Assembly (NCBI RefSeq): GCF_030818015.1 | Contig: NZ_JAUSZX010000001.1 | Span: 496,001 to 560,000 of the forward strand | DNA: 64,000 nt | Origin: Arthrobacter globiformis | GTDB lineage: Bacteria; Actinomycetota; Actinomycetes; Actinomycetales; Micrococcaceae | Reading direction: 5' to 3' | Part shown: positions 22,225 to 64,000 of the stretch, piece after piece | Layout: each line of letters starts with the position of its first letter | How positions within the stretch are numbered: position 1 is the stretch's first letter | The notes under the pieces: model-generated | Database searches by the model: none | Told to the model about the DNA's origin: nothing | Seen by the model: the letters and a program-made list of their open reading frames with translations, nothing else | Translations under genes and position numbers: made by a program

Positions 22225-23235
22225 ATGGCAAAAACCAATGCCCGGCTGCCCCGGCTTGAGGATGTGGCGGAGCGCGCGGGAGTCTCGCACCAGACTGTGT
22301 CCCGGGTGATCAACAACCATCCCAACGTCAGCAAGGCCACGCGTGAGCGCGTCGAGGCCGCCGTTGCCGAGCTGGGCTACCGGCGCAATACTGCGGCGCG
22401 GAGCCTGGTGACCCGGAGGTCGCAGACCATCGGCGTACTTGGCAGCGAGTTGTCCCAGTACGGTCCCGCCAACACGCTGCTCGGGGTCGAACAGGCCGCG
22501 CGCGACGCCGGCTACTTCGTGAGCATCGCGGCCCTGAGGTCGGTGAGCCGGGAGGCGATTTTCGATGCCATCCGGCACTTCCTGGACCAGTCCGTGGACG
22601 GCATTGTAGTGATCGTGCCGCATTCCGAGACGCTCCTCGCCCTGGCGGAACTGAATCCCGGCGTGCCGGTGGTGGCCGTGGGGTCGCTGGGCAGTGAGGG
22701 GGTCAGTGGCGCCATGGTGGACCAGAAGCGGGGGGCCGAGCTCGCCGTCGGGCATTTGATTGAGCAGGGCCACCGCCGGATCGGCCACATTGCCGGTCCG
22801 CAGGACTGGATTGATGCGGTGGCGCGTGCCGAGGGCTGGAGTGCTGCACTTCGCGCGGCCGGGCTGGATGACAGCCTGGTGGTCGAGGGGGACTGGAGCG
22901 CGGGCAGCGGCTATGAGATCGGCCGGAAGCTGGCTGCCGAACGGACTGCCACCGCGCTGTTCGTGGGCAACGACCAGATGTCCCTGGGCCTGCTCCGTGC
23001 CTTCAACGAGGCCGGCGTCAGGGTCCCCGAGGATGTCTCGGTGGTGGGCTTCGACGACCAGCCGGAGTCGGGCTATTTCACGCCGCCGCTCACCACCGTG
23101 CGCCAGGACTTCGAGGAGCTGGGCAGGCGCTGCATGGACCTGATGCTGAGCGCCATTGAGAACGGGGACACCGTCAGCACCACGGTGGTGGAGCCCGAGC
23201 TGGTAGTCCGCCGGAGCACGTCCGCCCCGGCCTGA
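22225..23235 (+). CDS. LacI-family regulator of arabinose genes (copy 1)
   Basis: 336 residues from ATG 22225; upstream sequence in the same frame is not LacI-like. The helix-turn-helix is LPRLEDVAERAGVSHQTVSRVINNHPNV (read as two blocks, residues 8-35), followed by the hinge helix RRNTAARSLVTRRSQTIGVL. The periplasmic-binding-protein-like effector domain runs to the end, with VVGFDDQPESGYFTPPLTTVRQDFEELG. It lies 106 bases upstream of araB and is very similar to the second LacI at 28294. The ribosome-binding site is poor, so expression may be low. It probably binds the TTGTTAGCGCTAACAA-type operators seen at four promoters, with arabinose or a derivative as inducer. Confidence 0.9.
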   Translation: MAKTNARLPRLEDVAERAGVSHQTVSRVINNHPNVSKATRERVEAAVAELGYRRNTAARSLVTRRSQTIGVLGSELSQYGPANTLLGVEQAARDAGYFVSIAALRSVSREAIFDAIRHFLDQSVDGIVVIVPHSETLLALAELNPGVPVVAVGSLGSEGVSGAMVDQKRGAELAVGHLIEQGHRRIGHIAGPQDWIDAVARAEGWSAALRAAGLDDSLVVEGDWSAGSGYEIGRKLAAERTATALFVGNDQMSLGLLRAFNEAGVRVPEDVSVVGFDDQPESGYFTPPLTTVRQDFEELGRRCMDLMLSAIENGDTVSTTVVEPELVVRRSTSAPA

Positions 23236-23269
23236 CGGCATAGATCCCCAAACCGGTGATCCGCAGCAC

Positions 23270-23299
23270 TTGACGGAGTAAGTTGTTAGCGCTCACAAT
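23270..23299 (+). promoter_or_regulatory. araB promoter with LacI-type operator
   Basis: The operator TTGTTAGCGCTCACAA (23283-23298) is a near-perfect palindrome with the central CG typical of LacI/GalR proteins. A matching promoter, TTGACG (23270-23275) and CACAAT (23294-23299) with an 18-base spacer, lies so that the operator covers the spacer and -10. Binding would therefore block initiation of araBDA. The 23236-23341 gap holds nothing else. Confidence 0.75.
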
Positions 23300-23341
23300 G
23301 GTGTCAGCCCGATAAGCAGCGGGCCATCATTTGGAGGATTC

Positions 23342-25096
23342 ATGGACGTCACAGCAGACGGCAGCGAAAACTATGTCATCGGGGTGGACTACGGCACCCT
23401 GTCCGGCCGGGCCGTGGTTGTGCGGGTCCGGGACGGCAAGGAACTCGGCAGCGGCGTGTTCGACTACCCGCACGCGGTAGTCACCGAAACGCTTCCGGCG
23501 GACGTGGCGGACACGGCCGAAGGAACAGCCGCCCGCCTGCCCGGGGAATGGGCGCTGCAGGTGCCCAACGACTACCGCGACGTGCTCCGGCACGCCGTTC
23601 CGGCCGCAATCGCTGACGCCGGAATCGACCCGGCCGCCGTCGTCGGGATCGCCACGGACTTCACGGCCTGCACCATGGTGCCCGTCAAGGCTGACGGAAC
23701 CCCGCTGAACGAGGTGCCGGGCTTCGCGAACCGCCCGCACGCGTATGTGAAGCTGTGGCGCCACCACGCCGCGCAGGGCCAGGCGGACCGTATCAACGCG
23801 CTCGCCGCCGAGCTGGGCGAATCCTGGCTGCCGCGGTACGGCGGACTGATCTCGTCCGAGTGGGAATTCGCCAAGGGGCTGCAGCTGCTGGAGGAGGACC
23901 CCGAGGCCTACGCCGAAATGGACCACTGGGTGGAGGCCGCCGACTGGATTGTGTGGCAGCTCTGCGGAAACTACGTCCGCAACGCCTGCACCGCCGGGTA
24001 CAAGGGCATCTACCAGGACGGGCACTACCCGTCCGATGACTTCCTCGCCGCCCTGAACCCGCAGTTCAAGGACTTCGTCAGCGCCAAGCTGGACCACACC
24101 ATCGGACGCCTGGGCGACGCCGCCGGCTACCTGACCGCCGAGGCCGCCGCCTGGACCGGGCTCCCGGAGGGCATCGCCGTCGCTGTGGGCAACGTGGACG
24201 CACACGTCACCGCCCCGGCAGCGAAGGCAGTGGAGCCGGGCCAGCTCGTGGCCATCATGGGCACCTCCACCTGCCACGTCATGAACGGCGCCGAACTCCA
24301 TGAGGTGCCGGGAATGTGCGGCGTGGTGGACGGCGGCATTGTCGACGGGCTCTGGGGGTACGAGGCCGGACAATCCGGCGTTGGCGACATCTTCGGCTGG
24401 TTCACCAAGTACGGCGTTCCGCCGGAATACCACCAGGCCGCGGCCGCAGCTGGACAGGGCATCCATGAATACCTGACGGACCTGGCCTCCGGGCAGGCGA
24501 TCGGCCAGCACGGCCTGATCGCGCTCGACTGGCACTCCGGCAACCGCTCCGTGCTGGTGGACCACGAGCTCTCCGGCGTGGTCGTCGGCCAGACCCTGGC
24601 CACCCGGCCGGAGGACATTTACCGGGCGCTGCTCGAGGCCACCGCCTTCGGCACCCGCACCATCGTGGAGGCCTTCCGCGATTCCGGCGTCCCGGTGAAG
24701 GAATTCATCGTGGCCGGCGGCCTGCTGAAAAACCGACTCCTCATGCAGATCTACTCGGACGTGACCGGACTCCAGCTCTCCACCATCGGCTCCACGCAGG
24801 GCCCGGCCCTGGGTTCGGCCATCCACGCGGCCGTCGCCGCCGGAAAGTATGCCGATGTCCGGGCCGCCTCCGAGACGATGGGCGCCGCCCCCGGCGCCGT
24901 CTACACCCCCATCCCGGAAAACGTTGCAGCGTACGACGAACTGTTCCGCGAGTACCGGACCCTCCACGATTACTTCGGCAGGGGAACCAACGACGTCATG
25001 CACCGGCTCAAGGCCATCCAGCGCAACGCCGTTCAGCCGGCCAACGCCCGGTCAACCAACGTCCAGTCCCTGCTTACCGAGGAGGTTTCGGCATGA
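23342..25096 (+). CDS. araB: L-ribulokinase
   Basis: 584 residues; TTTGGAGGATTC precedes ATG. It phosphorylates L-ribulose with ATP to L-ribulose 5-phosphate. FGGY-kinase features are IGVDYGTLSGRAVVV near the N-terminus (phosphate-binding), IATDFTACTMVPV, and the C-terminal LEATAFGTRTIVEAF and VAGGLLKNRLLMQIYSDV region that closes over ATP. GTSTCHVM is characteristic of AraB. Length (about 560-580) is normal. Its stop overlaps the araD start (ATGA), and the order araB-araD-araA is standard in actinobacteria. It is the first gene after the LacI-controlled promoter. Confidence 0.96.
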   Translation: MDVTADGSENYVIGVDYGTLSGRAVVVRVRDGKELGSGVFDYPHAVVTETLPADVADTAEGTAARLPGEWALQVPNDYRDVLRHAVPAAIADAGIDPAAVVGIATDFTACTMVPVKADGTPLNEVPGFANRPHAYVKLWRHHAAQGQADRINALAAELGESWLPRYGGLISSEWEFAKGLQLLEEDPEAYAEMDHWVEAADWIVWQLCGNYVRNACTAGYKGIYQDGHYPSDDFLAALNPQFKDFVSAKLDHTIGRLGDAAGYLTAEAAAWTGLPEGIAVAVGNVDAHVTAPAAKAVEPGQLVAIMGTSTCHVMNGAELHEVPGMCGVVDGGIVDGLWGYEAGQSGVGDIFGWFTKYGVPPEYHQAAAAAGQGIHEYLTDLASGQAIGQHGLIALDWHSGNRSVLVDHELSGVVVGQTLATRPEDIYRALLEATAFGTRTIVEAFRDSGVPVKEFIVAGGLLKNRLLMQIYSDVTGLQLSTIGSTQGPALGSAIHAAVAAGKYADVRAASETMGAAPGAVYTPIPENVAAYDELFREYRTLHDYFGRGTNDVMHRLKAIQRNAVQPANARSTNVQSLLTEEVSA

Positions 25097-25803
25097 GCGC
25101 CCTGCTGGACACCATTGCCCGTGTCCGCCGCGAGGTCTGCGAATTGCACGCCGAGCTGACCCGGTACGACCTGGTGGTCTGGACCGCCGGCAACGTCTCC
25201 GGCCGGATCCCCGGCTACGACCTCATGGTCATCAAGCCCTCGGGCGTCTCGTACGACGCCCTGACCCCCGAAGCCATGGTGGTCACCGATCTCTACGGCA
25301 CCCCGGTCAGCAGCCTGAGCGCCGACGCCGACGGCGTACCCGCCCAGTGGGAGAACCCGGACCTCACACCGTCGTCGGACACCGCCGCGCACGCCTACGT
25401 GTACCGGAACATGCCCGACGTCGGCGGCGTGGTCCACACGCACTCCACCTATGCCACGGCCTGGGCCGCGCGGGGCGAGGAGATCCCGTGTGTGCTGACC
25501 ATGATGGGCGATGAGTTCGGTGGCCCCATCCCGGTGGGCCCGTTCGCGCTCATCGGCGACGATTCGATCGGCCGCGGCATCGTGGACACCCTGCGGGGAT
25601 CCAACTCGCCGGCGGTGCTGATGCAGAACCACGGCCCGTTCACCATCGGCAAGGACGCGCGCTCCGCAGTCAAGGCCGCCGTGATGTGCGAGGAGGTGGC
25701 CCGCACGGTCCACATCTCGCGCCAGCTCGGCGAGCCGCTGCCCATCGACCAGGGGCAGATCGAGTCGCTCTACGACCGCTACCAGAACGTATACGGACGC
25801 TAG
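25093..25803 (+). CDS. araD: L-ribulose-5-phosphate 4-epimerase
   Basis: 236 residues. It converts L-ribulose 5-phosphate to D-xylulose 5-phosphate, which enters the pentose phosphate pathway. Class II aldolase/epimerase motifs are present: WTAGNVSGR, MVIKPSGVSYD, SSDTAAHAYVYRNMPDVGGVVHTHSTYATAWA with the zinc-binding HTHS pair, and MQNHGPFTIG carrying the third zinc His. EEVARTVHISRQLGE follows near the C-terminus. Start overlaps the araB stop; 45 bases separate it from araA. Confidence 0.96.
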   Translation: MSALLDTIARVRREVCELHAELTRYDLVVWTAGNVSGRIPGYDLMVIKPSGVSYDALTPEAMVVTDLYGTPVSSLSADADGVPAQWENPDLTPSSDTAAHAYVYRNMPDVGGVVHTHSTYATAWAARGEEIPCVLTMMGDEFGGPIPVGPFALIGDDSIGRGIVDTLRGSNSPAVLMQNHGPFTIGKDARSAVKAAVMCEEVARTVHISRQLGEPLPIDQGQIESLYDRYQNVYGR

Positions 25804-25848: not shown

Positions 25849-27369
25849 ATGTCCACCGCCAACAACACCTCCCTCGAGCACTACGAGGTTTGGTTCCTGA
25901 CCGGCAGCCAGCACCTCTACGGCGAGGACGTGCTGAAGCAGGTGGCCGCCCAGTCGCAGGAGATCGCTGCCGCGCTGAACGAATCCTCCGAGGTGCCGGT
26001 CAAGCTTGTCTGGAAGCCCGTGCTGACGGATTCGGACGCCATCCGCCGGACCGCGCTGGAGGCCAACTCCGACGATTCGGTGATCGGCGTGACGGCGTGG
26101 ATGCACACGTTCTCCCCGGCGAAGATGTGGATCCAGGGCCTGGACCTGCTCCGCAAGCCCCTCCTGCACCTGCACACCCAGGCCAACGTGGAACTGCCTT
26201 GGGCGGACATCGACTTCGACTTCATGAACCTGAACCAGGCCGCGCACGGCGACCGCGAGTTCGGCTACATCCAGTCCCGGCTGGGTGTGCCGCGCAAGAC
26301 CGTCGTGGGCCACGTGTCCAACCCCGACGTGGCCCGTCAGGTGGGCGTCTGGCAGCGCGCCTCCGCCGGTTGGGCGGCCGTCCGGAACCTGAAGCTGACC
26401 CGCTTCGGGGACAACATGCGCAACGTCGCCGTCACCGAAGGTGACAAGACCGAGGCGGAGCTGCGCTTCGGCGTCTCGGTCAACACCTGGTCGGTCAACG
26501 AACTCGCCGACGCCGTCCACGGCTCGGCGGAGTCCGACGTCGACACCCTGGTCGCCGAGTACGAACGGCTTTACGACGTGGCGCCGGAGCTTCGCTCCGG
26601 CGGTGCCCGCCATGAGTCACTGCGCTACAGTGCCCGCATCGAGCTCGGGCTGCGCAGCTTCCTCGAAGCCAACGGCTCTGCAGCCTTCACCACCTCCTTC
26701 GAGGATCTCGGCGAGCTGCGGCAGCTGCCGGGAATGGCCGTCCAGCGGCTCATGGCGGACGGCTACGGCTTCGGTGCCGAGGGCGACTGGAAGACGGCCA
26801 TCCTGATCCGCGCGGCCAAGGTCATGGGCGCCGGACTGCCCGGCGGCGCTTCGCTCATGGAGGACTACACCTATCACCTGGTGCCCGGCCAGGAGAGGAT
26901 CCTCGGCGCCCACATGCTGGAGGTCTGCCCTTCGCTAACCGCCACCAAGCCGCGCGTCGAAATCCACCCGCTGGGCATCGGCGGCAAGGAGGACCCGGTC
27001 CGCATGGTCTTCGACACCGACGCCGGCCCCGGCGTCGTGGTCGCACTGTCCGACATGCGCGACCGCTTCCGCCTCGTGGCGAACGCCGTCGACGTCGTCG
27101 ACCTCGACGAGCCGCTGCCCAACCTGCCGGTCGCACGCGCCCTCTGGGAACCGAAGCCCGACTTCGCCACCTCCGCGGCCGCCTGGCTCACCGCCGGGGC
27201 CGCGCACCACACGGTTCTTTCCACCCAGGTGGGCGTGGACGTGTTCGAGGACTTCGCCGAAATCGCCCAGACCGAGCTGCTCACCATCGACGAAGGCACC
27301 ACCCTCAAGCAGTTCAAGAAGGAACTGGCCTGGAACGCCGCTTACTACAGGCTGGCCGGCAGGCTGTGA
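25849..27369 (+). CDS. araA: L-arabinose isomerase
   Basis: 506 residues; AAAAGGAGACACC precedes ATG. It isomerises L-arabinose to L-ribulose using Mn2+. Diagnostic blocks are [15 protein letters not shown] at the N-terminus, [75 protein letters not shown] with metal-ligand His, and [26 protein letters not shown] with the final His pair. Length (about 500) is standard. Its TGA overlaps the GTG of the aldose epimerase (GTGA), so the epimerase is part of the operon. Confidence 0.97.
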
Positions 27370-28280
27370 CCGACAGCAGGGCTGGGACCGAATTCAACAT
27401 CCGGGCGGGGGAGTACACCGCCGTCATCACGGCACAGGCAGGTGCCCTGCGAGAGCTGCGCCACCGGGGACGGGACCTCATCGTTCCGTTCCCGGCGGGC
27501 GGGCCCATCCCCGACTACCGCGGCATTGTCGCAGCGCCCTGGCCCAACCGGATCGCCGACGGCCGGTACACGTTCGACGGCAGCGAGTACGAGGTGCCGG
27601 TCAACGAACCGGAGCGCGGCTGTGCCCTGCACGGCCTGGTGTTCCCCCTGGACTGGGAATTGGAGTCGCAGGACGAGTCCTCAGTGACGCTTTCCTGCAT
27701 CGCCGGTCCGACGCCGGGCTACCCGCATACGGTGCGGCTCGGGGTCGAATACCGGCTGTCGGGGGACGGCCTTCACAGCCGGGTCACGGCGCTGAACGTT
27801 GGCGGTACCGTGGCGCCCTACGGGGTCTGCCCTCACCCGTACCTGGTTGCCGGTCCGTCGCCCCTCGATGAGTGGACCCTCGAAGTCCCCGCCGGGGAGT
27901 TCCTCGAGGTCACCCCGGACAGGCTGCTGCCCAAGGAAAGGCGCACCGTGGAGGGCCACGGGTTTGATTTCCGCGCGCCGCGCGCCATCGGCGCCACTGA
28001 GATCGATCACGCCTTCACGGACATTGCGTTCGACGGCGGGGGGCGGGCGCGAGTGCTGGTCCGGGATCCGGGCGGAACCGGCGTCGGAATGTCCTGGGAC
28101 CGCACCTGCCAGTGGCTCCAGATCCATACCGCCGACAAGCGGCCGCCGGCCCCCAACCGGCTGGGCCTCGCCGTGGAACCCATGACCTGCCCGCCCGATG
28201 CCTTCAACAGCGGCGTGGACCTGATCCGGCTCGAACCGGGCGCCACGCACGAGGCATCCTGGAGCATCTTCGCCACGTGA
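27366..28280 (+). CDS. Aldose 1-epimerase (mutarotase-like)
   Basis: 304 residues from a GTG that overlaps the araA stop. Aldose 1-epimerases interconvert alpha and beta anomers of free sugars. Family features are [20 protein letters not shown] near the start, the [16 protein letters not shown] block, [11 protein letters not shown] with catalytic His, [10 protein letters not shown] with a second His, and [18 protein letters not shown] near the end with catalytic Glu. Translational coupling to araA suggests it feeds the isomerase the correct anomer. This would matter if arabinose enters as a furanose from the neighbouring transporter. Confidence 0.9.
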
Positions 28281-28293: not shown

Positions 28294-29307
28294 GTGACAG
28301 CAAACACCGCGCCACGTCCTCCCGTCATGGAGGACGTGGCGCGCCTCGCAGGCGTGTCCCACCAGACCGTCTCGCGTGTGCTGAACACGCATCCCAACGT
28401 CAGCGCCCGGACCCGCAGACGTGTGGAACGCGCCATCGCCGAGCTGGGATACCGCCGCAACACCGCGGCACGCAGCCTCGTCACCAGGCGTTCCCAGACG
28501 ATTGGAGTCCTGGGCGCCGGCACGGCACACTACGGCCCAGCCAACACGCTGCTGGGCGTCCAGCACGCAGCCCGGAACGAGGGCTATGCCGTCAGCATGG
28601 CCAGCCTCAGCGAAGTGACGGCTGCCGGCATCCACGACGCCCTCGAACACTTCCTGCTGCAGTCGGTGGACGGGATCGTGGTGATCGTCCCGCACGAGAC
28701 GATGCTGAAATCGCTGCACGCCATCGCACTGTCCGTCCCGCTGGTTGCCGTGGGTTTCGGGGCGGATGAACACCTGACGGTCGCCGCCGTGAACCAGCGC
28801 GTTGGTGCGGGCCTCGCCGTGCAGCACCTGGTGAACCTCGGCCACACGTCAATCGCCCACGTTTCGGGTCCGCAGGACTGGATTGACGCCGCTGCCCGGA
28901 CCGAGGGCTGGCGCCGCGCCCTTGAGCAGGCCGGGCTGCCGGAGGGCGTGCTGATCCCCGGCGACTGGAGTGCCGAAAGCGGCTACCGCGCGGGAATGGA
29001 ACTGGCGGCTGCCGGCAACGTCACTGCCGTGTTCGCGGCGAACGACCAGATGGCCCTCGGGGCACTGCGCGCCTTCCACGAGGCCGGGCTGCGCGTGCCG
29101 GAGGACATCAGCGTGGTGGGCTTCGACGACCAGCCGGAGGCCGGCTACTTCGTCCCGCCGCTGACCACGGTGAACCAGGGCTTCAAGGAGCTCGGTGCGC
29201 GCTGCATCCGGATGCTCCTGTCCGACATGGCCCACGGCCCTTCCGGAGCGGCCTCGGTCCTCAACCCCAAACTCGTGGTGCGGGGGTCCACGGCTGCTCC
29301 TACATAA
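28294..29307 (+). CDS. LacI-family regulator of arabinose genes (copy 2)
   Basis: 337 residues from GTG 28294; an ATG at 28327 would begin at MEDVARLAG. HTH residues are RLAGVSHQTVSRVLNTHPNV, hinge RRNTAARSLVTRRSQTIGVLGAG, then the sugar-binding core ending VVGFDDQPEAGYFVPPLTTV. It is strongly similar to the LacI at 22225 along its whole length, so the two arose by duplication. The recognition helices are the same (SHQTVSRV), so both probably bind the same operator. It starts 13 bases after the epimerase and may be the last gene of the araBDA operon, giving negative feedback. Confidence 0.9.
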   Translation: MTANTAPRPPVMEDVARLAGVSHQTVSRVLNTHPNVSARTRRRVERAIAELGYRRNTAARSLVTRRSQTIGVLGAGTAHYGPANTLLGVQHAARNEGYAVSMASLSEVTAAGIHDALEHFLLQSVDGIVVIVPHETMLKSLHAIALSVPLVAVGFGADEHLTVAAVNQRVGAGLAVQHLVNLGHTSIAHVSGPQDWIDAAARTEGWRRALEQAGLPEGVLIPGDWSAESGYRAGMELAAAGNVTAVFAANDQMALGALRAFHEAGLRVPEDISVVGFDDQPEAGYFVPPLTTVNQGFKELGARCIRMLLSDMAHGPSGAASVLNPKLVVRGSTAAPT

Positions 29308-54104: not shown

Positions 54105-55043
54105 ATGACAATGACGTCCCCGCAAGTCGCAGCGCGAGCAGGAGCGGCTGCCCCGGCGGCCCGCACGAGCCGCCGCGCCAGCCGCCGTTCGTGGGCCGGC
54201 TGGTGGTTCATTGGCCCGTTCATGGCCGTTTTCGCAGTGGTCTTCCTGGCCCCGATCGCGTATTCCATCTACCTGAGCGTCTTTCGCAACCAGCTCATCG
54301 GCGGCACCGCGTTCGTGGGCCTGGACAACTACGCCCGGGCGTTGGGGGACCCGCAGTTCTGGTCCGCGCTGGGACGGGTTTCGCTGTTCCTGGCCGTCCA
54401 GGTGCCGGTCATGCTGATGATCGCCCTCGTTGTGGCCCTCGCCCTGGACAGCGGCAGGCTCTACGGGAAGTCGTTCTTCCGGATCTCGATCTTCCTGCCC
54501 TATGCCGTGCCCGCCGTCGTCGCCACACTCATGTGGGGCTTCATGTACGGCACCCGATTCGGACTGGTGGGAAACATCAACCAGGCCTTCGGCCTGAACC
54601 TGCCCAGCCCGCTCTCCTCCGAACTGGTGCTGGCCTCAATCGGAAACATCGTCACGTGGGAGTTCATCGGCTACAACATGCTGATCTTCTACTCCGCGCT
54701 GACCGTCATCCCCAAGTCCCTCTATGAGGCCGCTGAGATCGACGGCGCCGGCCAGCTGAGGGTCATCGCCGCGATCAAGCTCCCGGCCATCCGCGGCGCC
54801 ATCGTGGTCGCCAACATCTTCTCAGTGATCGGCAGTTTCCAGCTCTTCAATGAGCCCAGCATCCTCAAGAGCCTCTCACCCAACACCATCTCGACCTACT
54901 TCACGCCCAACCTGTACGCCTTCTCCCTGTCCTTCTCCGGGCAGCAGTACAACTACTCCGCCACGGTGGCGATCATCATGGGGCTGATCACCATGGCCAT
55001 TGCCTATGCCGTCCAGGTCCGCGGCATGCGAAAGGAGCGCTGA
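54105..55043 (+). CDS. Carbohydrate ABC transporter permease (MalF-like)
   Basis: 312 residues with six membrane segments. Typical blocks are WWFIGPFMAVFAVVFLAPIAYSIYLSVFRNQL, FVGLDNYARALGDPQFWSALGRVS and the EAA loop YEAAEIDGAGQLRVIAAIKLPAIRGAIVVAN. It forms the channel with the next permease and imports an oligosaccharide. AGGACCTTTC is upstream of ATG. It is the first gene of the galactan operon. No ATPase gene accompanies it, as is usual for actinobacterial oligosaccharide importers that share MsiK. Confidence 0.92.
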   Translation: MTMTSPQVAARAGAAAPAARTSRRASRRSWAGWWFIGPFMAVFAVVFLAPIAYSIYLSVFRNQLIGGTAFVGLDNYARALGDPQFWSALGRVSLFLAVQVPVMLMIALVVALALDSGRLYGKSFFRISIFLPYAVPAVVATLMWGFMYGTRFGLVGNINQAFGLNLPSPLSSELVLASIGNIVTWEFIGYNMLIFYSALTVIPKSLYEAAEIDGAGQLRVIAAIKLPAIRGAIVVANIFSVIGSFQLFNEPSILKSLSPNTISTYFTPNLYAFSLSFSGQQYNYSATVAIIMGLITMAIAYAVQVRGMRKER

Positions 55044-56038: not shown

Positions 56039-57382
56039 ATGATCAAGACCCTGACCCGCCGCGGCCTGCTGCAGACTTCCGCCGTCGCCGCCGCACTCGC
56101 CCTGGGGCTCACCGCCTGCGGAGGCGGCGGCAACGCAGCGCCGCAGCAAACGGTCAACAGCGACGCCGTCGAAGCCGCCCTCCAAAAAGGCGGCAAGCTG
56201 ACAGTGTGGGCCTGGGACCAGTCGCTGAAGAAAGTCGCCGAGGGCTTCGAGGCCAAGTACCCCAACGTGGACGTCAACCTGGTCAACGCGGGCACCGGAA
56301 ACGACCAGTACACCGCCCTGCAGAACGCGATGTCCGCCGGCTCCGGGGTGCCCGATGTGGCGCAGATTGAGTACTACGCACTTCCGCAGTTTGCGCTCAG
56401 CAAGTCACTGGCGGAGCTCGGCCAGTTCGGCGCTGCAGACCTCGACGGTACCTTCACGGCCGGTCCGTGGTCCTCGGTGCAGGCGCAGGGCGGCGTCTAC
56501 GGCCTTCCCATGGACTCCGGCCCCATGGCCCTGTTCTACAACAAGCAACTCTTCGACAAGCACGGCATCGCAGTGCCCACCACCTGGGATGAGTTCCTCG
56601 AGGCCGGACGTGCGCTGAAGAAGGCTGACCCGAAGGCCTACATCGCCAACGACACAGGGGACGCCGGGTTCACCACCAGCATGATCTGGCAGGCCGGCGG
56701 CAAGCCCTACAAGGTGGACGGCACCAACGTCGGCGTGAACTTCTCCGACGAAGGGTCCACCAAGTTCGCCGAGACCTGGCAAAAGCTCATTGACGAGGAC
56801 CTCCTGGCCCCCATCAGCTCGTGGAGCGATGAATGGTACAAGGGCCTCGGCAACGGCACCATCGCCACCCTTTCCACCGGCGCTTGGATGCCCGGGAACC
56901 TGGTCTCCGGCGTTGCCGACGGGGCAGGCAAATGGCGGGTCGCACCCTTGCCGCAGTGGGAGAAGGGCGCCAACAGCAGCGCCGAAAACGGCGGCAGCTC
57001 GCTGGCCATTCCTGCGGCCAGCAGCCAGGCAGCGCTGGCCTACGGCTTCCTGAAGTACTCCAATGTTGAGGAAGGCGTCCAGGCCAGGATCGACGGAGGA
57101 GCGTTCCCCGCCACCTCAAAGGACCTGGCGTCCGAGAAATTCCAGAACACCGAGTTCAAGTACTTCGGCGGCCAAAAGGCCAACCAGATCTTCGCCGAAT
57201 TAGCGAAGAATGTTCCCGCCGGCTGGTCCTACCTGCCGTTCCAGGTCTACGCCAACAGCATTTTCAACGACACCGCCGGCCAGGCCTACGTCTCCGGCAC
57301 CAAGCTCAAGGACGGCCTCGCCGCATGGCAGAAAGCCTCGGTCAAGTACGGCACCGAGCAGGGGTTCACGGTCAAGGAATAA
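56039..57382 (+). CDS. Carbohydrate ABC transporter binding lipoprotein
   Basis: 447 residues; GAAGGAAG precedes ATG. The signal (MIKTLTRRGLLQTSAVAAAL) ends in the lipobox LTAC at about residue 26. The family 1 extracellular solute-binding fold follows: KLTVWAWDQSLKKVAEGFEAKYPNVDVNLVNAGTGNDQYTALQNAMSAGSGVPDVAQIEYYALPQF (in blocks), and YGLPMDSGPMALFYNKQLFDKHGIAVPTTWDEFLEAGRAL. Binds the imported oligosaccharide, by context a galacto-oligosaccharide derived from arabinogalactan. Gene order permease, permease, binding protein is less common than binding protein first. Confidence 0.92.
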   Translation: MIKTLTRRGLLQTSAVAAALALGLTACGGGGNAAPQQTVNSDAVEAALQKGGKLTVWAWDQSLKKVAEGFEAKYPNVDVNLVNAGTGNDQYTALQNAMSAGSGVPDVAQIEYYALPQFALSKSLAELGQFGAADLDGTFTAGPWSSVQAQGGVYGLPMDSGPMALFYNKQLFDKHGIAVPTTWDEFLEAGRALKKADPKAYIANDTGDAGFTTSMIWQAGGKPYKVDGTNVGVNFSDEGSTKFAETWQKLIDEDLLAPISSWSDEWYKGLGNGTIATLSTGAWMPGNLVSGVADGAGKWRVAPLPQWEKGANSSAENGGSSLAIPAASSQAALAYGFLKYSNVEEGVQARIDGGAFPATSKDLASEKFQNTEFKYFGGQKANQIFAELAKNVPAGWSYLPFQVYANSIFNDTAGQAYVSGTKLKDGLAAWQKASVKYGTEQGFTVKE

Positions 57383-57473: not shown

Positions 57474-59501
57474 ATGACCCACACCGCCCAACACCGCTGG
57501 CTGCGCTGGCCGTCCCCGGACACCAAGAGGCTGGCCTTCGGTGCCGACTACAACCCCGAGCAGTGGCCCCGCGAGGTCTGGGCAGAGGATGTGCGGCTCA
57601 TGAGGGAGGCCGGGGTCAACATCGTCTCCCTGGCCATTTTCTCGTGGGCACGGATCCAGCCCTCGCGGGACAGCTGGGACTTTGCCTGGCTTGACGACAT
57701 CATCGGCCTGCTCCACGCCAACGGCATTGCCGTGGACCTTGCCACCGCCACCGCCTCCCCGCCGCCGTGGCTCGCGGCCGAACACCCGGAAATCCTTCCG
57801 GTCACCCAGAACGGCGAGACCCTCTGGCCCGGCGGCCGGCAGCACTGGCGGCCCACGTCGCCGGTGTTCCGCGAGCACGCACTGACGCTCGTGCGCGCCA
57901 TGGCCGAACGCTACAAGGACCACCCCGCCGTCTGTGCCTGGCACGTTTCCAACGAGCTTGGCTGCCACAACATCTATGACTATTCCGACGACGCCGCAGC
58001 CGCCTTCCGCCGGTGGCTCCAGGACCGCTACGGCACACTTGAGGAGCTGAACACCGCCTGGGGGACCGACTTCTGGTCCCAGCGCTACGCGGACTGGAAC
58101 CACATCCTCCCGCCGCGCAAGGCGGCGTCCTACCCGAACCCCACGCAGCAGCTGGACTTCAAGCGCTTCTCCTCGGACTCGTTGGGGGATTACCTCCGCG
58201 CCGAACGCGACATCCTCAACGGCATCACCCCGGACATTCCCGTCACCACCAATTTCATGGTGATGGGGGAAACGAAGGGAATGGACTACGCCGTCTGGGC
58301 CGCCGACGTCGATTTCGTCTCCAACGACCACTACGTGGTCCCGGGACCGCAGGACCATGACGAACTGTCCTTCTCCGCGAACCTGACCGGCAACATCGCC
58401 GGCGGCAACCCCTGGTTCCTCATGGAGCACTCCACGAGCGCCGTCAATTGGCAGCCCGTGAACACGCCCAAGAAGCCTGGGGCCCTCGCCCGGGACTCGC
58501 TCACCCACGTGGCCCACGGCGCAGACGCGGTCTGCTTCTTCCAGTGGCGGCAGTCGCGCGCCGGGGCAGAGAAATACCACTCCGCGATGGTTTCGCACGC
58601 CGGCAGCGACAGCAGGCTCTTCCGCGACGTCACCGCGCTGGGACGGACGCTGGGCGAACTCTCGGCGATCACGGGAAGCCGGCGCGAGCCGGCACGGGCC
58701 GCGATCCTCTTCGACTGGGACTCCTGGTGGGCCAGCGAGCTGGACTCCCATCCGAGCGACAGGCTCCGCTACCGGCAGGAGGCGCTCGACTGGTATTCGG
58801 CGTTCCTGGCCAGCGGCATCCGCGCCGATGTCCTCCCGGCGGCAGCCTCCCTTGAGGGCTACCACCTGGTCATCGCACCGGTCCTGCACGTGGTGCCGGC
58901 GGAGCTGCGCGCGCGGTTGACCGCTTTTGTCGAAGCAGGCGGACACCTGGTGACCACCTACTTCTCGGGCATCGTGGACCAGAACGACCACGTGTGGCTC
59001 GGCGGATATCCCGGCGCCCTCGGCGATCTGCTGGGGATCCGGGTGGAAGAGTTCGGCCCGCTGGCCCCCGGAGAAGAAGCCACGCTCGACGACGGGTCAG
59101 CCGGCACGCTGTGGGCGGACTCGGTGGCCACCACCTCCGGAGACACGAAGGTCCTGCGCCGGTTCACCTCCGGTGACCACGCGGGTGAACCGGCTGTAAC
59201 CCGGCGCAGCGTGGGCAGCGGATCCGCCGGCTACGTGGCGACGCGACTCGGACCCGCCGGCCTGGTCCCTGTCCTGCGGGAATTCGCCGACCTGGCCGGC
59301 GTCGAGTCTGAACTGCCCGCAGAACTGTGTGGCGCCGTCGAACTCGCCGTCCGCGCAGGGGAGGAAGGACGCTTCCTTTTCCTGATCAACCGAACGGACC
59401 AGGCCGTCGACATCTCGGCAGTCCCCGGCGCCGTGCTCGCGGGCACCGGGCAAGCCAAGCTCGCAGCCCGCGGTGTGGCCGTTCTCAAAAGCCCCAAATA
59501 A
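57474..59501 (+). CDS. GH42 beta-galactosidase
   Basis: 675 residues, normal for GH42. The start RLAFGADYNPEQWPREVWAEDVRLMREAGVNIVSLAIFSWARIQPS is typical. The acid/base is E161 in WHVSNELGCHNIYD, and the nucleophile E318 in FLMEHSTSAVNW. Trimer-forming and C-terminal beta domains follow, with ARAAILFDWDSWWASE and the type-A glutamine amidotransferase-like region around VPAELRARLTAFVEAGGHLVTTYFSG. No signal peptide, so cytoplasmic. It hydrolyses galacto-oligosaccharides imported by the transporter encoded upstream. AAAAGAGGAACTCC precedes ATG. Confidence 0.95.
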   Translation: MTHTAQHRWLRWPSPDTKRLAFGADYNPEQWPREVWAEDVRLMREAGVNIVSLAIFSWARIQPSRDSWDFAWLDDIIGLLHANGIAVDLATATASPPPWLAAEHPEILPVTQNGETLWPGGRQHWRPTSPVFREHALTLVRAMAERYKDHPAVCAWHVSNELGCHNIYDYSDDAAAAFRRWLQDRYGTLEELNTAWGTDFWSQRYADWNHILPPRKAASYPNPTQQLDFKRFSSDSLGDYLRAERDILNGITPDIPVTTNFMVMGETKGMDYAVWAADVDFVSNDHYVVPGPQDHDELSFSANLTGNIAGGNPWFLMEHSTSAVNWQPVNTPKKPGALARDSLTHVAHGADAVCFFQWRQSRAGAEKYHSAMVSHAGSDSRLFRDVTALGRTLGELSAITGSRREPARAAILFDWDSWWASELDSHPSDRLRYRQEALDWYSAFLASGIRADVLPAAASLEGYHLVIAPVLHVVPAELRARLTAFVEAGGHLVTTYFSGIVDQNDHVWLGGYPGALGDLLGIRVEEFGPLAPGEEATLDDGSAGTLWADSVATTSGDTKVLRRFTSGDHAGEPAVTRRSVGSGSAGYVATRLGPAGLVPVLREFADLAGVESELPAELCGAVELAVRAGEEGRFLFLINRTDQAVDISAVPGAVLAGTGQAKLAARGVAVLKSPK

Positions 59502-59550: not shown

Positions 59551-62500
59551 ATGACGAACAGATCCAGACGGCCCTGGGCCGTGACCGCCGCCGGCGTCAC
59601 CGCGGCGGTCTTCTCCGCAGGGCTCGTGGCCGGACCCGCACTCGCCGCCCCGGTGCCGGCCAAGGCAGCCGACGAACCCGTGCCGGCCGGCGCCGTGACC
59701 GTGCGGCCGGACCCCTCCTACCAGGGTGACGCCTTCGAAGGGTGGGGCACCAGCCTGGTCTGGTTCGCCAACGCCACCGGCGACTATCCGGATGAAATCC
59801 GCAACAAGCTTGCTGACATGGTCTTCGGCGACGAGGGGCTGAACCTCAACATCGCGCGGTACAACGTCGGCGGCGGAAACGCGCCGGACGTGAAGGACTA
59901 CCTCCGGGCCGGCGGCGCCGTTGAAGGTTGGTGGAAGGCCCCCGAGGGCACCACCCGGCAGGACAAAGACTGGTGGGATCCGGAAAATTCGGACCACTGG
60001 AACCTCGACGCCGACCAGACACAGCGCTGGTGGGTGGACCGGATCAAGAACGACATCACGCACTGGGAAGCCTTCAGCAATTCCCCGCCGTGGTTCCAGA
60101 CGGTCAGCGGATACGTTTCGGGCGGCTTCAACTCCTCGCAGGACCAACTGCGGACCGAGAGCGTTGAAGACTTCTCCTCCTACCTGGTGGGCGTCATCAA
60201 GCAGCTGGAAAAGGCGCACGGCATCAAGATCGACACCATCGATCCCATGAACGAACCGAACACCCCGTACTGGGGAACCAGCCTGAACTCGGCGGGCCAG
60301 CCCGTCGGTGGCCGGCAGGAAGGCGCCCACATGGGCCCCGAACTGCAGCAGAAGGTGGTCCAGTCCCTGGCCAAGGCACTGGCCAGTGCCGACACCGGCG
60401 CCGTCATCAGCGCCATGGACGAGACCAACCCTTCGACGTTCGCCAGCAACTGGAACAGCTATTCCGCCGACGCCAAGGCAAACGTCGGGCAGCTCAACGT
60501 CCACACCTACGGGACCGGGCAGCGGACAGCCGTCCGGGACATCGCCAAGGGCGAGGACAAGCCCCTGTGGATGAGCGAAACCGGCGGCTCCTGGCTGGAC
60601 GGGCAGAACTTCACCAGCATGCAGCCCGGGCTCGGCCTGGCCCAGCACATGGTCAACGACCTCCGCGAGCTCGAGCCCGAGGCCTGGGTGTTCTGGCAGC
60701 CCGTTGAGGACTACAACAACATGAAGCCCGGCGGCGAAAGCGCCATCGGCTCCAACTGGGGCGAGATCCAGCTGCCCTTCGACTGCGCTGCCGGGGACAA
60801 CCTCGATAGCTGCCCGATCTACACGAACACCAAATACAACACCGCGCGGAACTTCACGCACTACATCAAGCCCGGGGACCGCCTGGTCAAGGTGGACGAC
60901 ACGAACAGCGCGGCCGCCGTCTCCGACTCCGGAGCCACCGTGGTGCACGTGAACGACAGCAAGCAGCAGCGCCAGGTTGCCCTGGATCTCTCCGGGTTCG
61001 GTGCAATTCAGGGGAACGCCACCGTGACCCCGGTGACCAGCGACGCCTCCGGCGCGCTGGTGCAGGGAGAGCCGGTCGCCGTCGGAAAGGACCGCACGGC
61101 GGTCCTCACGGTGGCGGCCGAATCCGTCACAACGTTCCTGGTCAATGGTGTGCACGGCGTGGCCAAGGACGCCGCCCTGGTCCAGGCGGACCACGTCTAC
61201 CGCCTGCAGGGCGTCGAAAGCGGCAAGTCCCTTACCCAGGGAACCGGCAACGCCGCCGTCATCCGTTCCGCCGCGGGCGCCGACCAGCAGTGGACCATCC
61301 GCCGCCTCAGCGGAGAGAACAGCAGCCGTGCCCGCTACGCGATTGAAACGCCCGACGGCGGGCGGCAGCTCGCCGTCGTCGATGGAACGCCCCAGCTGGC
61401 GCCGGCGGAGCCAACGCCGGCTGACGCCTCCCAGTGGACCATGTCCACCACCGGAGACGGCACCTACACGTTCGTCAACGCGGCAACCGGCAGGCTTCTC
61501 GAGGTGGGCGGGCATGCCACCGGGGACGGATCTCCAGTGACCCTGTGGACCGCCAACTCCGGCGAGAACCAGCGCTGGCGGGTCATCGATGAAACTGTCC
61601 AGGGATTCCAGAACGTCACGGCGTTCACCGTGCCCGAGACCGCTCCGCAGCTGCCCGCCAGGGTGGTCCCCGTCTACCGCGACGGCGCCCGGGGTGAACT
61701 TCCGGTGACCTGGACGATGCCGCCGGAGAACCGGTGGAGCAAACCCGGAACGGTTGACGTTCGCGGAACGGCGACCGACGTCCTGGGTGTTGCGCATCCG
61801 GTGACGGCCAAAGTCACGGTGGACAAGCTCGTCTCGACGCTTCCGGCCCGGGCCAAGACCTATGCCGGCGGAACGCCCGCGCTCCCTGCCACCGTGACAG
61901 CGGTGACTGCCGGCGGCAGCAAGGTGGAGCGGCCGGTTGTCTGGGATGCCGCCGGACGTTTTTCCGAGATTGGCGTGGCCACAGTTGCTGGCGGGGCCGA
62001 CGCCGCCGACGGGCGGACACTGCCCGCCACTGTCCGCGTCCAGGTCACGGCGGGAACAGCCGACAACGTGGCCGATGACCCCGAGGCCACGTTCAGCGCC
62101 ACGTTCACCGAGCCGGGCTACGGCACGGCAGGGCTGGGCAACGGCAACCTGACGGACAAGGCCTGGTCCAACTGGAAGTCGGGTGCCAAGAACACCACCG
62201 ACACCCTGTCCGTGGCGCTCGCGAACCAGAAAACAGTGACCGGCGTGAGGGTCCACTTCTACCGCGACGGATCCACCGACAGCTACGCCCAAAGCCTCCA
62301 GGCGCAGACCAAGGCAGCCGACGGCACGTGGCAGAACGCTGGCGGCCCGGTCCCGGTCCCCGGCGGCAGCCCGGCCCCGGTGGTTACGGTTCCGGTTGCC
62401 AATGTGGACACCAGTGACGTCCGCGTGGTGCTCACCGCCCGGCCGAACACCCACATGACGGTCAGCGAAGTGCAGGTGCTGGCGCTGGCTCCGGGCAAGT

Positions 62501-62781
62501 CCTCCGACGCCGCCGCGGCGGGAATCTCCGTCAACGGCCAGCCACTGGCCGGCTTCGACCCGGGCGTCACCTCCTACCGGACCGGCGCCCAGGGGGCACG
62601 CCAGGAGGTCACGGCCACCGCGGCAGACCCCTACGCCACGGTCACAGTCCAGCAATCAGACGCAGTGCAGCAATCAAATAAAGTGCAGCAGGCGGACACG
62701 CAATCCGGAACCGCGGTGGTCACGGTTCGAAGTGAAGACGGAAGCCAGACCCGGACGTACGAGGTCGTTTTCGCCAGGTAG
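59551..62781 (+). CDS. Secreted multidomain GH30 enzyme, likely endo-beta-1,6-galactanase
   Basis: 1076 residues from ATG 59551, with GAAGGGAATTCA upstream. A Sec signal ends near AGPALAAPVPA. The GH30 barrel runs about 45-480: DAFEGWGTSLVWFANATGDYP, acid/base E235 in DPMNEPNTPYWG, nucleophile E343 in WMSETGGSW. This region resembles Streptomyces GH30_5 endo-beta-1,6-galactanases. Next come a ricin-type lectin (about 535-685, QW and RLLEVGG repeats), two Ig-like modules (Big_4, about 690-835), an F5/8C-like beta-sandwich (about 845-990), and a C-terminal cadherin-like module. A glutamine-rich stretch (VQQSDAVQQSNKVQQ) lies in the last. It probably attacks type II arabinogalactan side chains; the products fit the GH42 and importer. 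Confidence 0.87.
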   Translation: MTNRSRRPWAVTAAGVTAAVFSAGLVAGPALAAPVPAKAADEPVPAGAVTVRPDPSYQGDAFEGWGTSLVWFANATGDYPDEIRNKLADMVFGDEGLNLNIARYNVGGGNAPDVKDYLRAGGAVEGWWKAPEGTTRQDKDWWDPENSDHWNLDADQTQRWWVDRIKNDITHWEAFSNSPPWFQTVSGYVSGGFNSSQDQLRTESVEDFSSYLVGVIKQLEKAHGIKIDTIDPMNEPNTPYWGTSLNSAGQPVGGRQEGAHMGPELQQKVVQSLAKALASADTGAVISAMDETNPSTFASNWNSYSADAKANVGQLNVHTYGTGQRTAVRDIAKGEDKPLWMSETGGSWLDGQNFTSMQPGLGLAQHMVNDLRELEPEAWVFWQPVEDYNNMKPGGESAIGSNWGEIQLPFDCAAGDNLDSCPIYTNTKYNTARNFTHYIKPGDRLVKVDDTNSAAAVSDSGATVVHVNDSKQQRQVALDLSGFGAIQGNATVTPVTSDASGALVQGEPVAVGKDRTAVLTVAAESVTTFLVNGVHGVAKDAALVQADHVYRLQGVESGKSLTQGTGNAAVIRSAAGADQQWTIRRLSGENSSRARYAIETPDGGRQLAVVDGTPQLAPAEPTPADASQWTMSTTGDGTYTFVNAATGRLLEVGGHATGDGSPVTLWTANSGENQRWRVIDETVQGFQNVTAFTVPETAPQLPARVVPVYRDGARGELPVTWTMPPENRWSKPGTVDVRGTATDVLGVAHPVTAKVTVDKLVSTLPARAKTYAGGTPALPATVTAVTAGGSKVERPVVWDAAGRFSEIGVATVAGGADAADGRTLPATVRVQVTAGTADNVADDPEATFSATFTEPGYGTAGLGNGNLTDKAWSNWKSGAKNTTDTLSVALANQKTVTGVRVHFYRDGSTDSYAQSLQAQTKAADGTWQNAGGPVPVPGGSPAPVVTVPVANVDTSDVRVVLTARPNTHMTVSEVQVLALAPGKSSDAAAAGISVNGQPLAGFDPGVTSYRTGAQGARQEVTATAADPYATVTVQQSDAVQQSNKVQQADTQSGTAVVTVRSEDGSQTRTYEVVFAR

Positions 62782-62784
62782 GAA

Positions 62785-62823
62785 GCTGGGTTCCGTCGCC
62801 GCTATTCCGCGACGGAACCCAGC
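62785..62823. terminator. Bidirectional terminator between GH30 and ROK genes
   Basis: A perfect 15-bp stem (62785-62799 with 62809-62823) and nine-base loop. It starts four bases after the GH30 stop and its right arm lies in the last codons of the ROK gene, so it can serve both convergent transcripts. Confidence 0.75.
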
Positions 62824-64000
62824 CCCGTGGGGTCCGCCAGGAACCGGGCGAATCCCAGTTCCGCGGCGCCGATCATCATCAGATTGGACCCGAGTGCCGC
62901 GGGGTGCACCTTGGCCTGGGCGGCCGGCCCGTCCATCGCCTGGGAGAGCAGCAGCTCGTCGAGGGTGGTCGGCGCGAGCGCGTAAAGGACCCCCAGGAAA
63001 CCGTCGAGGATGATCACCTCCGGGTTGAAGGTGTTGACGGCGTTCCGGAGCGCGATGGCCAGGAAGCCCAGCTGCCGGGAGATCTCCTCTGCGACGGCGG
63101 GGCTGCCTGACGCCCTCAGGGCCTGTTCCAGCTGGGGCGTGTCGCCGCCGCTGAGGCCGAGGACTTCGAAGAGCCGTCCTTGGGACACCTCTGTTTCCAG
63201 GCAGCCGGTGGCGCCGCAGTGGCACTGTTCGCCGGACGTGCGGACGAACGTGTGGCCCAGTTCCCCGGCGAAACCCGAGGCGCCGCGGAGCAGCATGCCG
63301 TTGGAAATGATCCCGCCGCCGATGCCGCTGGCGCCCCCGTTGAGGTACACGAGGTTGTCCCGCCCGGCACCGGCCCCGAAGATCAGTTCCGCCTCGGCCG
63401 CGAGCGAGGCGTCGTTGGCGGCCTGGCAGGCGTAACCGGTGGCTTCGCTTAGCATCCGGGCAACAGGCTCGTCCCGCCAGCCCAGGTGCGGCGCGTGGCG
63501 GACCGTTCCGTCGTCGGGGTTTACCAGGCCGGGCACCGCCACACCAATGCCGGTGATCCGGTACGAGTGGTCCAGCTCCGTGCGCATCCCCTCGATCACG
63601 GCAGCGGCGATGTTCACCGCTTCCCGTGCACTGGGAATCCGTTCGGTGGCGAACCGGATCTTCTTTTGGACGATGCCGCCCAGGTTGACCAGCCCGATGG
63701 TGACGGCGTCGATCTCCGGGTAGACGGCGAGCGCCGCGATGGAAGGGCTCGGACGCACCTCGGGGCTGGGCCGGCCCACTTGTGCTTCGCCGATGGGCGC
63801 CGTCTCGTAGACCAGGCCGAGGGCGGCCAGCTGGCCGATCAAGGTTCCGACCGTTGACCTGTTGAGCCCGGTCCTTTTCGTCAGCTGCGCCCGGCTGAGG
63901 ACGCGGTGATGGTGGACCAGGGACGTGATCAGCGCCAGGTTGTTCCGCCTGGAGGGGTCCAGCTCGCTGGGCGGGGCGGTCGGGGCAGCCCGTTGGCGAG
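62802..64000 (-). CDS. ROK-family transcriptional regulator, N-terminus cut by window end
   Basis: The frame is open from the right window edge to TAG at 62802-62804. The visible part starts with a MarR-like HTH (RRNNLALITSLVHHHRVLSRAQLTKRTGLNRSTVGTL), then the ROK sugar-kinase-like domain: IGVAVPGLVNPDDGTVRHAP, GGASGIGGGIISNGMLLRGASGFAGELGHTFV, and the zinc motif CHCGATGCLET. The exact HTH-plus-ROK layout is that of NagC/XylR repressors. It is convergent with GH30, and may sense a sugar such as galactose, xylose or a phosphate of these. A few N-terminal residues are missing. Confidence 0.88.
   Translation of the reverse strand, partial: RQRAAPTAPPSELDPSRRNNLALITSLVHHHRVLSRAQLTKRTGLNRSTVGTLIGQLAALGLVYETAPIGEAQVGRPSPEVRPSPSIAALAVYPEIDAVTIGLVNLGGIVQKKIRFATERIPSAREAVNIAAAVIEGMRTELDHSYRITGIGVAVPGLVNPDDGTVRHAPHLGWRDEPVARMLSEATGYACQAANDASLAAEAELIFGAGAGRDNLVYLNGGASGIGGGIISNGMLLRGASGFAGELGHTFVRTSGEQCHCGATGCLETEVSQGRLFEVLGLSGGDTPQLEQALRASGSPAVAEEISRQLGFLAIALRNAVNTFNPEVIILDGFLGVLYALAPTTLDELLLSQAMDGPAAQAKVHPAALGSNLMMIGAAELGFARFLADPTGLGSVAE

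Follow-up and report, generated by a model that had tools for sequence, protein, structure and literature searches.

Two abutting gene units with different predicted operators in Arthrobacter globiformis: a candidate system for the use of type II arabinogalactan side chains

A 64,000-nucleotide stretch of the Arthrobacter globiformis genome (assembly GCF_030818015.1; positions 496001-560000 on contig 1 of a 5.09-Mb genome in 3 contigs), hereafter the window, carries a run of sugar utilization genes whose sequence suggests two adjoining units, each with a predicted operator of its own, rather than one arabinogalactan locus. Unit A (22.2-50.5 kb) contains the arabinose catabolism genes araBDA-galM, importers A and B, and genes for four glycoside hydrolase (GH) proteins, GH43-CBM42, GH51, GH146-like, and LamG-GH43. 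Unit B (52.9-62.8 kb) contains a LacI-family regulator gene, importer C, a GH42 gene, and the gene for a secreted GH30 enzyme. The favored reading, which we consider probable but well short of certain, is that the two units are separately controlled and together exploit type II arabinogalactan side chains; the specificities and the joint use of both units are predictions. The original prediction had described a single locus, comparable to a polysaccharide utilization locus, whose gene set could dismantle type II arabinogalactan. Every gene named in it was recovered by Pfam, and the proposed substrate gained support in that the binding protein of importer C and, less specifically, GH42 match the beta-1,6-galactobiose system of Bifidobacterium. 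A single coordinated locus was not supported, since there are two predicted operators, one per half, and relatives carry the halves separately. The run is also interrupted by EamA (34763-35869), GNAT (50641-51300), MFS (51057-52343), and MarR (52340-52831) genes, which were assigned by Pfam and have no evident link to sugars.

Two palindromes, opA (TGTKARCGYTMACA) and the 14-bp opB (TGTTTRCGYAAACA), were found by reading the intergenic regions. The opA sites lie upstream of araB (TGTTAGCGCTCACA, 23284..23297), upstream of importer A (TGTTAGCGCTAACA, 34028..34041), and on both sides of a divergent promoter region, toward importer B (TGTGAACGCTAACA, 42153..42166) and toward the GH51 gene (TGTTAGCGTTCACA, 42287..42300). 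These are the 4 exact matches in the window, with 0 extra at one mismatch (shuffle mean, 0.07), and there are 0 exact matches elsewhere in the genome. The 2 opB matches (TGTTTGCGCAAACA, 54006..54019, and TGTTTACGTAAACA, 54041..54054) both lie between importer C and lacI2, the regulator gene of unit B (shuffle mean, 0.03), with 0 elsewhere in the genome. Two points tell against these figures: the patterns were derived from the window's own sites, which match by construction, and allowing one mismatch adds 3 opA sites in the genome (reversed control, 1). Because the patterns were made from window sites, it is the remaining genome and the relatives that provide an informative test. We infer from these sequences that the palindromes are operators, and the pairing of the LacI regulators with them, the inducers, and the operons are predicted in the same way.

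Among 61 loci fetched by GH30, which include those of A. globiformis NBRC 12137 and A. pascens DSM 20545 and one (L064) that matches the C-terminal modules only, opB was present in 35, with 52 sites in total, and the reversed-pattern control gave 0 in 1.31 Mb. In 44 cases the site lay at most 600 bp from the extrapolated start of a GH30, GH42, importer C, lacI2, or LamG-GH43 gene; the remaining 8 sites lay 99-168 bp 5' of the first matched GH30 residue, where the computed start is over-extended. The opB-bearing loci represented nine genera, comprising Actinoplanes (10 loci), Arthrobacter (8), Streptomyces (7), Micromonospora (3), Oerskovia (2), Actinomyces (2, nearly identical), Nocardioides (1), Kineococcus (1), and Ancrocorticia (1). 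In Actinoplanes, Micromonospora, and Ancrocorticia, opB precedes the GH30 gene, and no importer C was recognized. On the opposite side, exact opB is missing from 26 of the 61 loci. A literature search on the opB string returned no paper containing the string among the matches listed.

The two palindromes were distributed differently across 150 genomes of the genus, in counts that ignore relatedness. The opA palindrome was found in 119 genomes (reversed pattern, 6) and opB in 16 (reversed pattern, 1); opA therefore appears to be a site of the whole genus and opB to mark a cassette with a patchy distribution. A GH30 homologue (E <= 1e-20) was present in 36 genomes, 7 of which had a close one (>= 70% identical), and opB occurred in all 7. 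It also occurred in all 6 genomes with a second GH30 type (open frame of 1431-1456 amino acids), 7-17 kb away, and in 2 (G049 and G062) of the 23 genomes whose GH30 genes are all of the remaining type. In G049 and G067, opB lies at lacI2/importer C homologues. The last opB genome, G140, had no homologue of window genes within the 16 kb fetched around the site. The G067 locus also encodes a 1430-amino-acid protein (L103:6567-10859) that combines a CBM13 module and a GH43 domain with a region sharing 46% identity with the window GH30.

A close LamG-GH43 gene (>= 80%) was found in 14 of the 150 genomes, 6 of which also had the close GH30, with a gap of 9.0-12.5 kb in 5 of the 6. Genes downstream of opA in relatives were inspected in G129, G141, G002, G122, G103, and G036. 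In G129, G141, and G002 the units are joined in the same order and both palindromes hold corresponding positions, with the GH146-like gene absent from G002. Two sets of observations speak against a fixed partnership: G122 and G103 carry the opA unit with no GH30 match in the genome, and the G036 assembly (150 contigs) has the opA unit on one contig and the galactan unit on another. Because the units occur separately in these three genomes, joint use could be no more than the trait of a lineage. Among the 61 GH30 loci, homologues of LamG-GH43 (tblastn, >150 bits) lie at most 10 kb from GH30 in 16, including Actinoplanes, Streptomyces, and Actinomyces loci; 13 of the 16 are outside Arthrobacter, and the domains were confirmed in L028 and L043 only. 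Homologues of araBDA, GH51, and GH43-CBM42 together, at the same score threshold, stand beside GH30 in 3 of the 61 loci, in Lentzea and Nocardia, and homologues of the importer C binding protein and GH42 accompany GH30 in 21. In Lentzea, near GH30 and araBDA, L046:15251-17434 encodes a pectate lyase-pectinesterase protein, which hints at a pectin context.

Unit B begins with lacI2 (52904..54016, minus strand; PF00356), a LacI-family regulator gene divergent from importer C across the opB sites; these are the coordinates of the listed open reading frame (ORF), and the true start is probably further in. Importer C, on the plus strand, consists of two permeases (54105..55043 and 55046..55996; both PF00528) and an SBP_bac_1 binding protein (56039..57382). 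No ATPase gene was recognized within unit B, and the importer presumably uses a common MsiK-type ATPase. Over its mature length the binding protein resembles Bal6GBP, the beta-1,6-galactobiose-binding protein (PDB 6q5g, 386 bits; 6h0h, 385 bits), with the next protein (6hur) at 160 bits and a lacto-N-biose binder at 125 bits. Bal6GBP binds beta-1,6-galactobiose with a dissociation constant of 92 nM and the beta-1,3 and beta-1,4 isomers 300- and 1630-fold more weakly (PMC8106489). The GH42 beta-galactosidase (57474..59501, plus strand; PF02449) has no visible signal peptide and is predicted to be intracellular. Its best match is PDB 4ucf (692 bits), with several other entries close behind, among them 4uni (677 bits), which is BlGal42A, a beta-1,6-preferring enzyme. 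A point against the linkage assignment is that other GH42 enzymes score at least as high as 4uni, and GH42 alone therefore leaves the linkage unfixed.

The secreted GH30 protein (59551..62781, plus strand; start probable), a candidate endo-beta-1,6-galactanase assigned to GH30_2 by Pfam, carries C-terminal CBM13-like, Big_4, F5/8, and cadherin-like modules and contains the single PF14587 match of the whole genome. It shares 90-92% identity with proteins from Arthrobacter sp. AFG20, A. ipis, Arthrobacter sp. ISL-65, A. pascens, and A. globiformis. Its best solved relative is the endo-beta-1,6-galactanase 24td (3.4e-34, 121 bits), with the next GH30 structures at 2e-4 or worse; the entry name and the residue numbering in PMC13431644 identify 24td as the GH30_5 enzyme Sa16Gal30A. 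Seven of eight catalytic and subsite -1/-2 residues are identical to those of 24td (E217, E320, N216, Q229, Y294, W350, and W359), including Gln229, which is said to discriminate galactose from xylose (PMC13431644). The original assignment to beta-1,6-galactan is supported by both the nearest structure and the retained Gln229, as far as homology can indicate. Three aligned substitutions point the other way: D354 is replaced by Glu, W341 by Glu, and W222 by Tyr. W341 is the stacking Trp of a secondary sugar site, reported as a structural feature rather than a requirement for activity and as conserved in several characterized members (PMC13431644), and because it is Glu here the enzyme is named GH30_5-like. 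NCBIfam gave only a weak XynC match (23 bits versus a cutoff of 650). Taken together, the genes of unit B argue strongly for a predicted role in arabinogalactan use.

Unit A opens with a plus-strand gene for a LacI-family regulator (22225..23235; Pfam LacI and Peripla_BP_3), a candidate AraR-like arabinose repressor directly 5' of araB with an opA site between. Pfam places this gene at 22099-23235, with 22225 an in-frame ATG within it; a minus-strand ORF at 22087-23241 has no Pfam domain, and the plus-strand LacI frame was preferred there. It is followed, all on the plus strand, by araB, encoding ribulokinase (23342..25096; NCBIfam L-ribulokinase, 798 bits, over the cutoff); an araD-type class II aldolase/epimerase gene (25093..25803; PF00596); araA, encoding L-arabinose isomerase (25849..27369; three AraA Pfam domains); the aldose 1-epimerase (mutarotase) gene galM (27366..28280; PF01263); and a second LacI-family regulator gene (28294..29307; PF00356 and PF13377) whose product resembles the first.

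Importers A and B, both on the minus strand, share the BPD_transp_2/ATPase/Peripla_BP_4 composition in Pfam. The original prediction had called them two arabinose-type importers; both are present, and their types can now be given in more detail. Importer A is of the multi-monosaccharide ChvE-GguAB type, with all three subunits exceeding their NCBIfam cutoffs: a GguB-type permease (29776..31110; 555 bits, cutoff 450), a GguA-type ATPase (31117..32646; 869 bits, cutoff 810), and a ChvE-type binding protein for multiple monosaccharides (32732..33979; 528 bits, cutoff 460). Importer B is of the YtfQRT-YjfF (Gaf) furanose type by best matches, comprising a YjfF/GafD-type permease (37429..38535; 417 bits, cutoff 363), a YtfT/GafC-type permease (38445..39476; 330 bits, cutoff 535), a YtfR/GafB-type ATPase (39473..41056; 659 bits, cutoff 850), and a YtfQ/GafA-type binding protein for galactofuranose or arabinofuranose (41079..42062; 347 bits, cutoff 510). 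Only YjfF exceeds its cutoff, and the three other subunits falling below theirs count against the Gaf assignment. The importer B genes are in line with the GH43-CBM42 gene and share a divergent promoter region with three further arabinofuranosidase genes. Gaf binding proteins have L-arabinofuranose as a ligand, some of them D-galactofuranose as well, and Gaf importer genes are associated with araBAD and, in certain bacteria, with genes for secreted arabinofuranosidases as well (PMC10191376).

Four secreted arabinofuranosidases are predicted in unit A. The GH43-CBM42 alpha-L-arabinofuranosidase (35922..37376, minus strand; Pfam GH43 and AbfB) probably starts at 37376 with a leader resembling a twin-arginine translocation (Tat) signal. 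It matches PDB 3akf across both domains with 477 bits, an entry that we take to be the exo-1,5-alpha-L-arabinofuranosidase of Streptomyces avermitilis. The GH51 alpha-L-arabinofuranosidase (42394..44937, plus strand; start probable) contains PF22848 (ASD1_dom) and PF06964 (AF_C) and resembles MgGH51 (PDB 6zps, 245 bits). A long GC-rich inverted repeat seen by eye at 44961-45010, between the GH51 and GH146-like genes, is possibly a partial terminator or an RNA-stabilizing hairpin.

The third enzyme, a LamG-bearing beta-L-arabinofuranosidase (45042..48118, plus strand; PF07944), had been labeled GH127; this family was rejected for it, the GH146 entries scoring far higher. It matches 5opj with 228 bits and 8k7y with 144 bits, compared with 51 bits for 3wkw and at most 69 bits for other GH127-type entries. 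We take 5opj to be BT0349 (GH146), 3wkw to be HypBA1 (GH127), and 8k7y, a beta-1,3-L-arabinofuranosidase, to be Bll3HypBA1 (GH146). Because the alignment to 5opj breaks into two segments (residues 2-110 and 365-785 of the frame used as query) that flank the LamG match (123-292), LamG is apparently inserted within the predicted catalytic domain. All but a few of 120 listed homologues have LamG plus the same two GH127 Pfam models, and this set of domains is listed for homologues from both Streptomyces and Arthrobacter. The Glu-x-Cys and Cys-Cys motifs of the Zn site are present, with E539, C541, C611, and C612 invariant in an alignment of 26 sequences including that of the window; motif and alignment match them to E723, C725, C804, and C805 of Bll3HypBA1 (PMC10850190). 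In this assembly, the Tat signal (ATG at 45042) and the catalytic domain (readable from 45188) are in different frames, the break lying within 45042-45190. The two parts share a frame in P0121, P0122, and P0126 and in L067-L070, four of the seven congener loci retrieved; the other three (L066, L071, and L072) had no short-motif match and are hence uninformative on the frame. The break is either real or an assembly error, and, to the detriment of the proposed arabinose release, the gene may be nonfunctional here or its product not exported.

The fourth enzyme, with the architecture LamG-aBig_2-GH43 by Pfam (48215..50470, plus strand), is a probable GH43_22-like alpha-L-arabinofuranosidase. Its only NCBIfam match is the BAD1527 alpha-arabinofuranosidase model, and no relative of its catalytic domain was found among solved structures at E <= 0.1. 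The B. adolescentis enzyme BAF40308, called a beta-xylosidase, is closest to the GH43_22 domain of BlArafE, which acts on alpha-1,3-arabinose of gum arabic arabinogalactan protein (AGP) and of arabinoxylan (PMC8939339). Because of the BAD1527 match and this placement of BAF40308, which we infer to be the same protein as that of the model, GH43_22 is the likely subfamily of LamG-GH43. Against the assignment stand the score, below the cutoff (182 bits versus 500), and the relatives themselves, one being named a beta-xylosidase and one being active on arabinoxylan (PMC8939339).

In the proposed mechanism, the secreted arabinofuranosidases of unit A (GH43-CBM42, GH51, GH146-like, and LamG-GH43) would free L-arabinose, the furanose form of which would enter through the Gaf-type importer and the pyranose form through the ChvE-GguAB-type importer, and AraA, AraB, and AraD would convert arabinose to xylulose-5-phosphate. 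The AraR-like LacI, acting at opA, would tie the unit A genes to arabinose. Secreted GH30 would cleave the exposed beta-1,6-galactan chains, importer C would take up beta-1,6-galactobiose, and cytoplasmic GH42 would split it, with the divergent LacI at opB responding to a galactoside. The beta-1,3-galactan main chain would remain or be left for others.

The substrate that best fits both units is the side chains of arabinogalactan, with arabinan and arabinoxylan as live rivals for unit A, for which the arabinogalactan reading rests on association (LamG-GH43 near GH30, 16 of 61 loci, and the Lentzea and Nocardia loci, 3 of 61). Unit A could instead be mainly an arabinan (rhamnogalacturonan I side chain), arabinoxylan, or general arabinoside regulon that meets the galactan unit by chance juxtaposition in one Arthrobacter lineage, an account that we judge unlikely yet worth serious attention. 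The best relative of GH43-CBM42, 3akf, is taken to be the S. avermitilis enzyme, which a paper title in the reference list of PMC8424115 names exo-1,5-alpha-L-arabinofuranosidase. Consistent with the same account, a GH146 member is active on arabinan as well as on AGP (PMC10850190), and GH43_22 holds the arabinan-active BlArafB and an arabinoxylan-active domain alongside the AGP-active BlArafA (PMC8939339). The unit also stands alone in G122 and G103, and opA is far more widespread than opB (119 versus 16 of the 150 genomes; reversed opA, 6). It is opposed by the lack of a recognized endo-arabinanase-type GH43 among the three PF04616 matches in the genome, by the recurrence of LamG-GH43 homologues close to GH30 (at most 10 kb) in Actinoplanes, Streptomyces, and Actinomyces, and by the Lentzea and Nocardia loci, in which araBDA, GH51, and GH43-CBM42 homologues stand beside GH30.

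That the whole run is one coregulated arabinogalactan polysaccharide utilization locus, as originally proposed, is very unlikely. Contiguity, the order kept in G129, G141, and G002, and the presence of a close LamG-GH43 in 6 of 7 genomes with a close GH30 versus 8 of 143 without one (kinship ignored) would fit such a locus, but the two distinct palindromes are each limited to one half, the EamA, GNAT, MFS, and MarR genes intervene, and the halves occur apart. It is more improbable still that GH30 is not a galactanase (but, e.g., a xylanase or an enzyme of other GH30 activity) and that unit B serves other galacto-oligosaccharides. The score of just 121 bits to a solved GH30_5, the differences at D354, W341, and W222, and the weak XynC match lean that way; they are countered by the conserved Gln229 and by the Bal6GBP-like protein and GH42 homologues found alongside GH30 in 21 of 61 loci. 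We tentatively suggest, as a possibility that could well prove wrong, that unit B forms an independent beta-1,6-galactan cassette carrying its own operator, which has reached nine or more actinomycete genera and docks beside different arabinose or GH43 modules. Arabinogalactan loci in actinobacteria would then be assembled from separately regulated parts, with side-chain shaving without main-chain cleavage, and unit A would capture furanose arabinose straight from the secreted arabinofuranosidases.

The closest known system is the AGP cluster of Bifidobacterium longum (BLLJ_1840-1854), which has a GH30_5 beta-1,6-galactan enzyme, a GH146 beta-L-arabinofuranosidase, and LamG-bearing GH43_22 arabinofuranosidases (PMC10850190 and PMC8939339), to which the GH30_5-like, GH146-like, and probable GH43_22-like enzymes of the window correspond. 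B. longum additionally has a GH43_24 exo-1,3-galactanase, a GH43_34, further GH43 domains, and membrane anchors. An exo-galactobiohydrolase activity is described for its GH30_5, whereas the window GH30 is nearest to an endo-beta-1,6-galactanase, and LamG is N-terminal in Bll3HypBA1 (PMC10850190) but apparently internal to the catalytic domain in the window protein. The window differs further in its araBDA genes, its Gaf-type importer, and its GH42/importer cassette, with predicted operators that are separate, and no GH43_24 was found in the PF04616 search. The beta-1,6-galactobiose locus of B. animalis subsp. lactis Bl-04 shares the ATP-binding cassette importer, the Bal6GBP-like binding protein, and GH42; the added secreted GH30 of the window would make the polymer usable, beyond the disaccharide. 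GafABCD L-arabinofuranose importer clusters of Shewanella sp. ANA-3 and M. smegmatis (MSMEG_1712) also link a YtfQ-like importer to ara genes (PMC10191376), whereas the window importer, whose furanose selectivity is putative, is in line with GH43-CBM42, divergent from three arabinofuranosidase genes, and beside a ChvE-type importer. S. avermitilis supplies the best solved relatives of both GH30 (the GH30_5 enzyme Sa16Gal30A; PMC13431644) and GH43-CBM42 (the 3akf enzyme); compared with Sa16Gal30A, the window GH30 has extra C-terminal lectin, Big_4, F5/8, and cadherin-like modules and is without the Trp of the secondary galactose site. Literature searches on Arthrobacter arabinogalactan, actinobacterial beta-1,6-galactan regulons, GH146 with LamG, and Arthrobacter GH30/GH42 galactan gave, among the matches listed, no title or abstract opening describing this locus.

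The arrangement offers a testable map of how plant arabinogalactan side chains may be used by soil actinobacteria without SusCD, with predicted inducers for the two units. The recurring opB palindrome could serve as a handle for finding beta-1,6-galactan cassettes in actinobacterial genomes. Capture of furanose arabinose before mutarotation could be tested directly on the Gaf-type importer, whose genes are in line with that of a secreted arabinofuranosidase.

For the main chain, the original statement that no GH43_24-type exo-1,3-galactanase is recognized was borne out by a whole-genome search with PF04616, which found no exo-1,3-galactanase-like GH43, with no GH43_24 reference sequence used. 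Its three matches were the two window genes and a third that was rejected as an exo-galactanase because it scored higher as GH32. The GH43 domain of the G067 protein, of unassigned subfamily, found nothing in the genome when used as a query, an empty result that by itself shows nothing. Two GH16 genes (PF00722), far from the locus, were considered as main-chain enzymes. The two units together could strip side chains but would probably leave the main chain uncut.

Of the four sugar-type repressors originally proposed, three LacI regulators and one ROK regulator were found, the latter more likely a xylose regulator. The ROK gene (at 62802) adjoins an FAD-linked oxidoreductase gene, with xylA and a xylB-like gene in divergent orientation beyond the edge of the window (region 62802-64000 and L073:2802-8258), and it was rejected as a member of the locus on this account; xylA is over the NCBIfam cutoff, and the xylB-like gene reaches 376.6 bits versus a cutoff of 380.25. 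A xylose locus probably abuts the galactan unit. A promoter and terminator scan over 44900-54200 gave results at chance level. Upstream of the locus, a multicopper oxidase with a TAT signal is encoded at 18020-20251.

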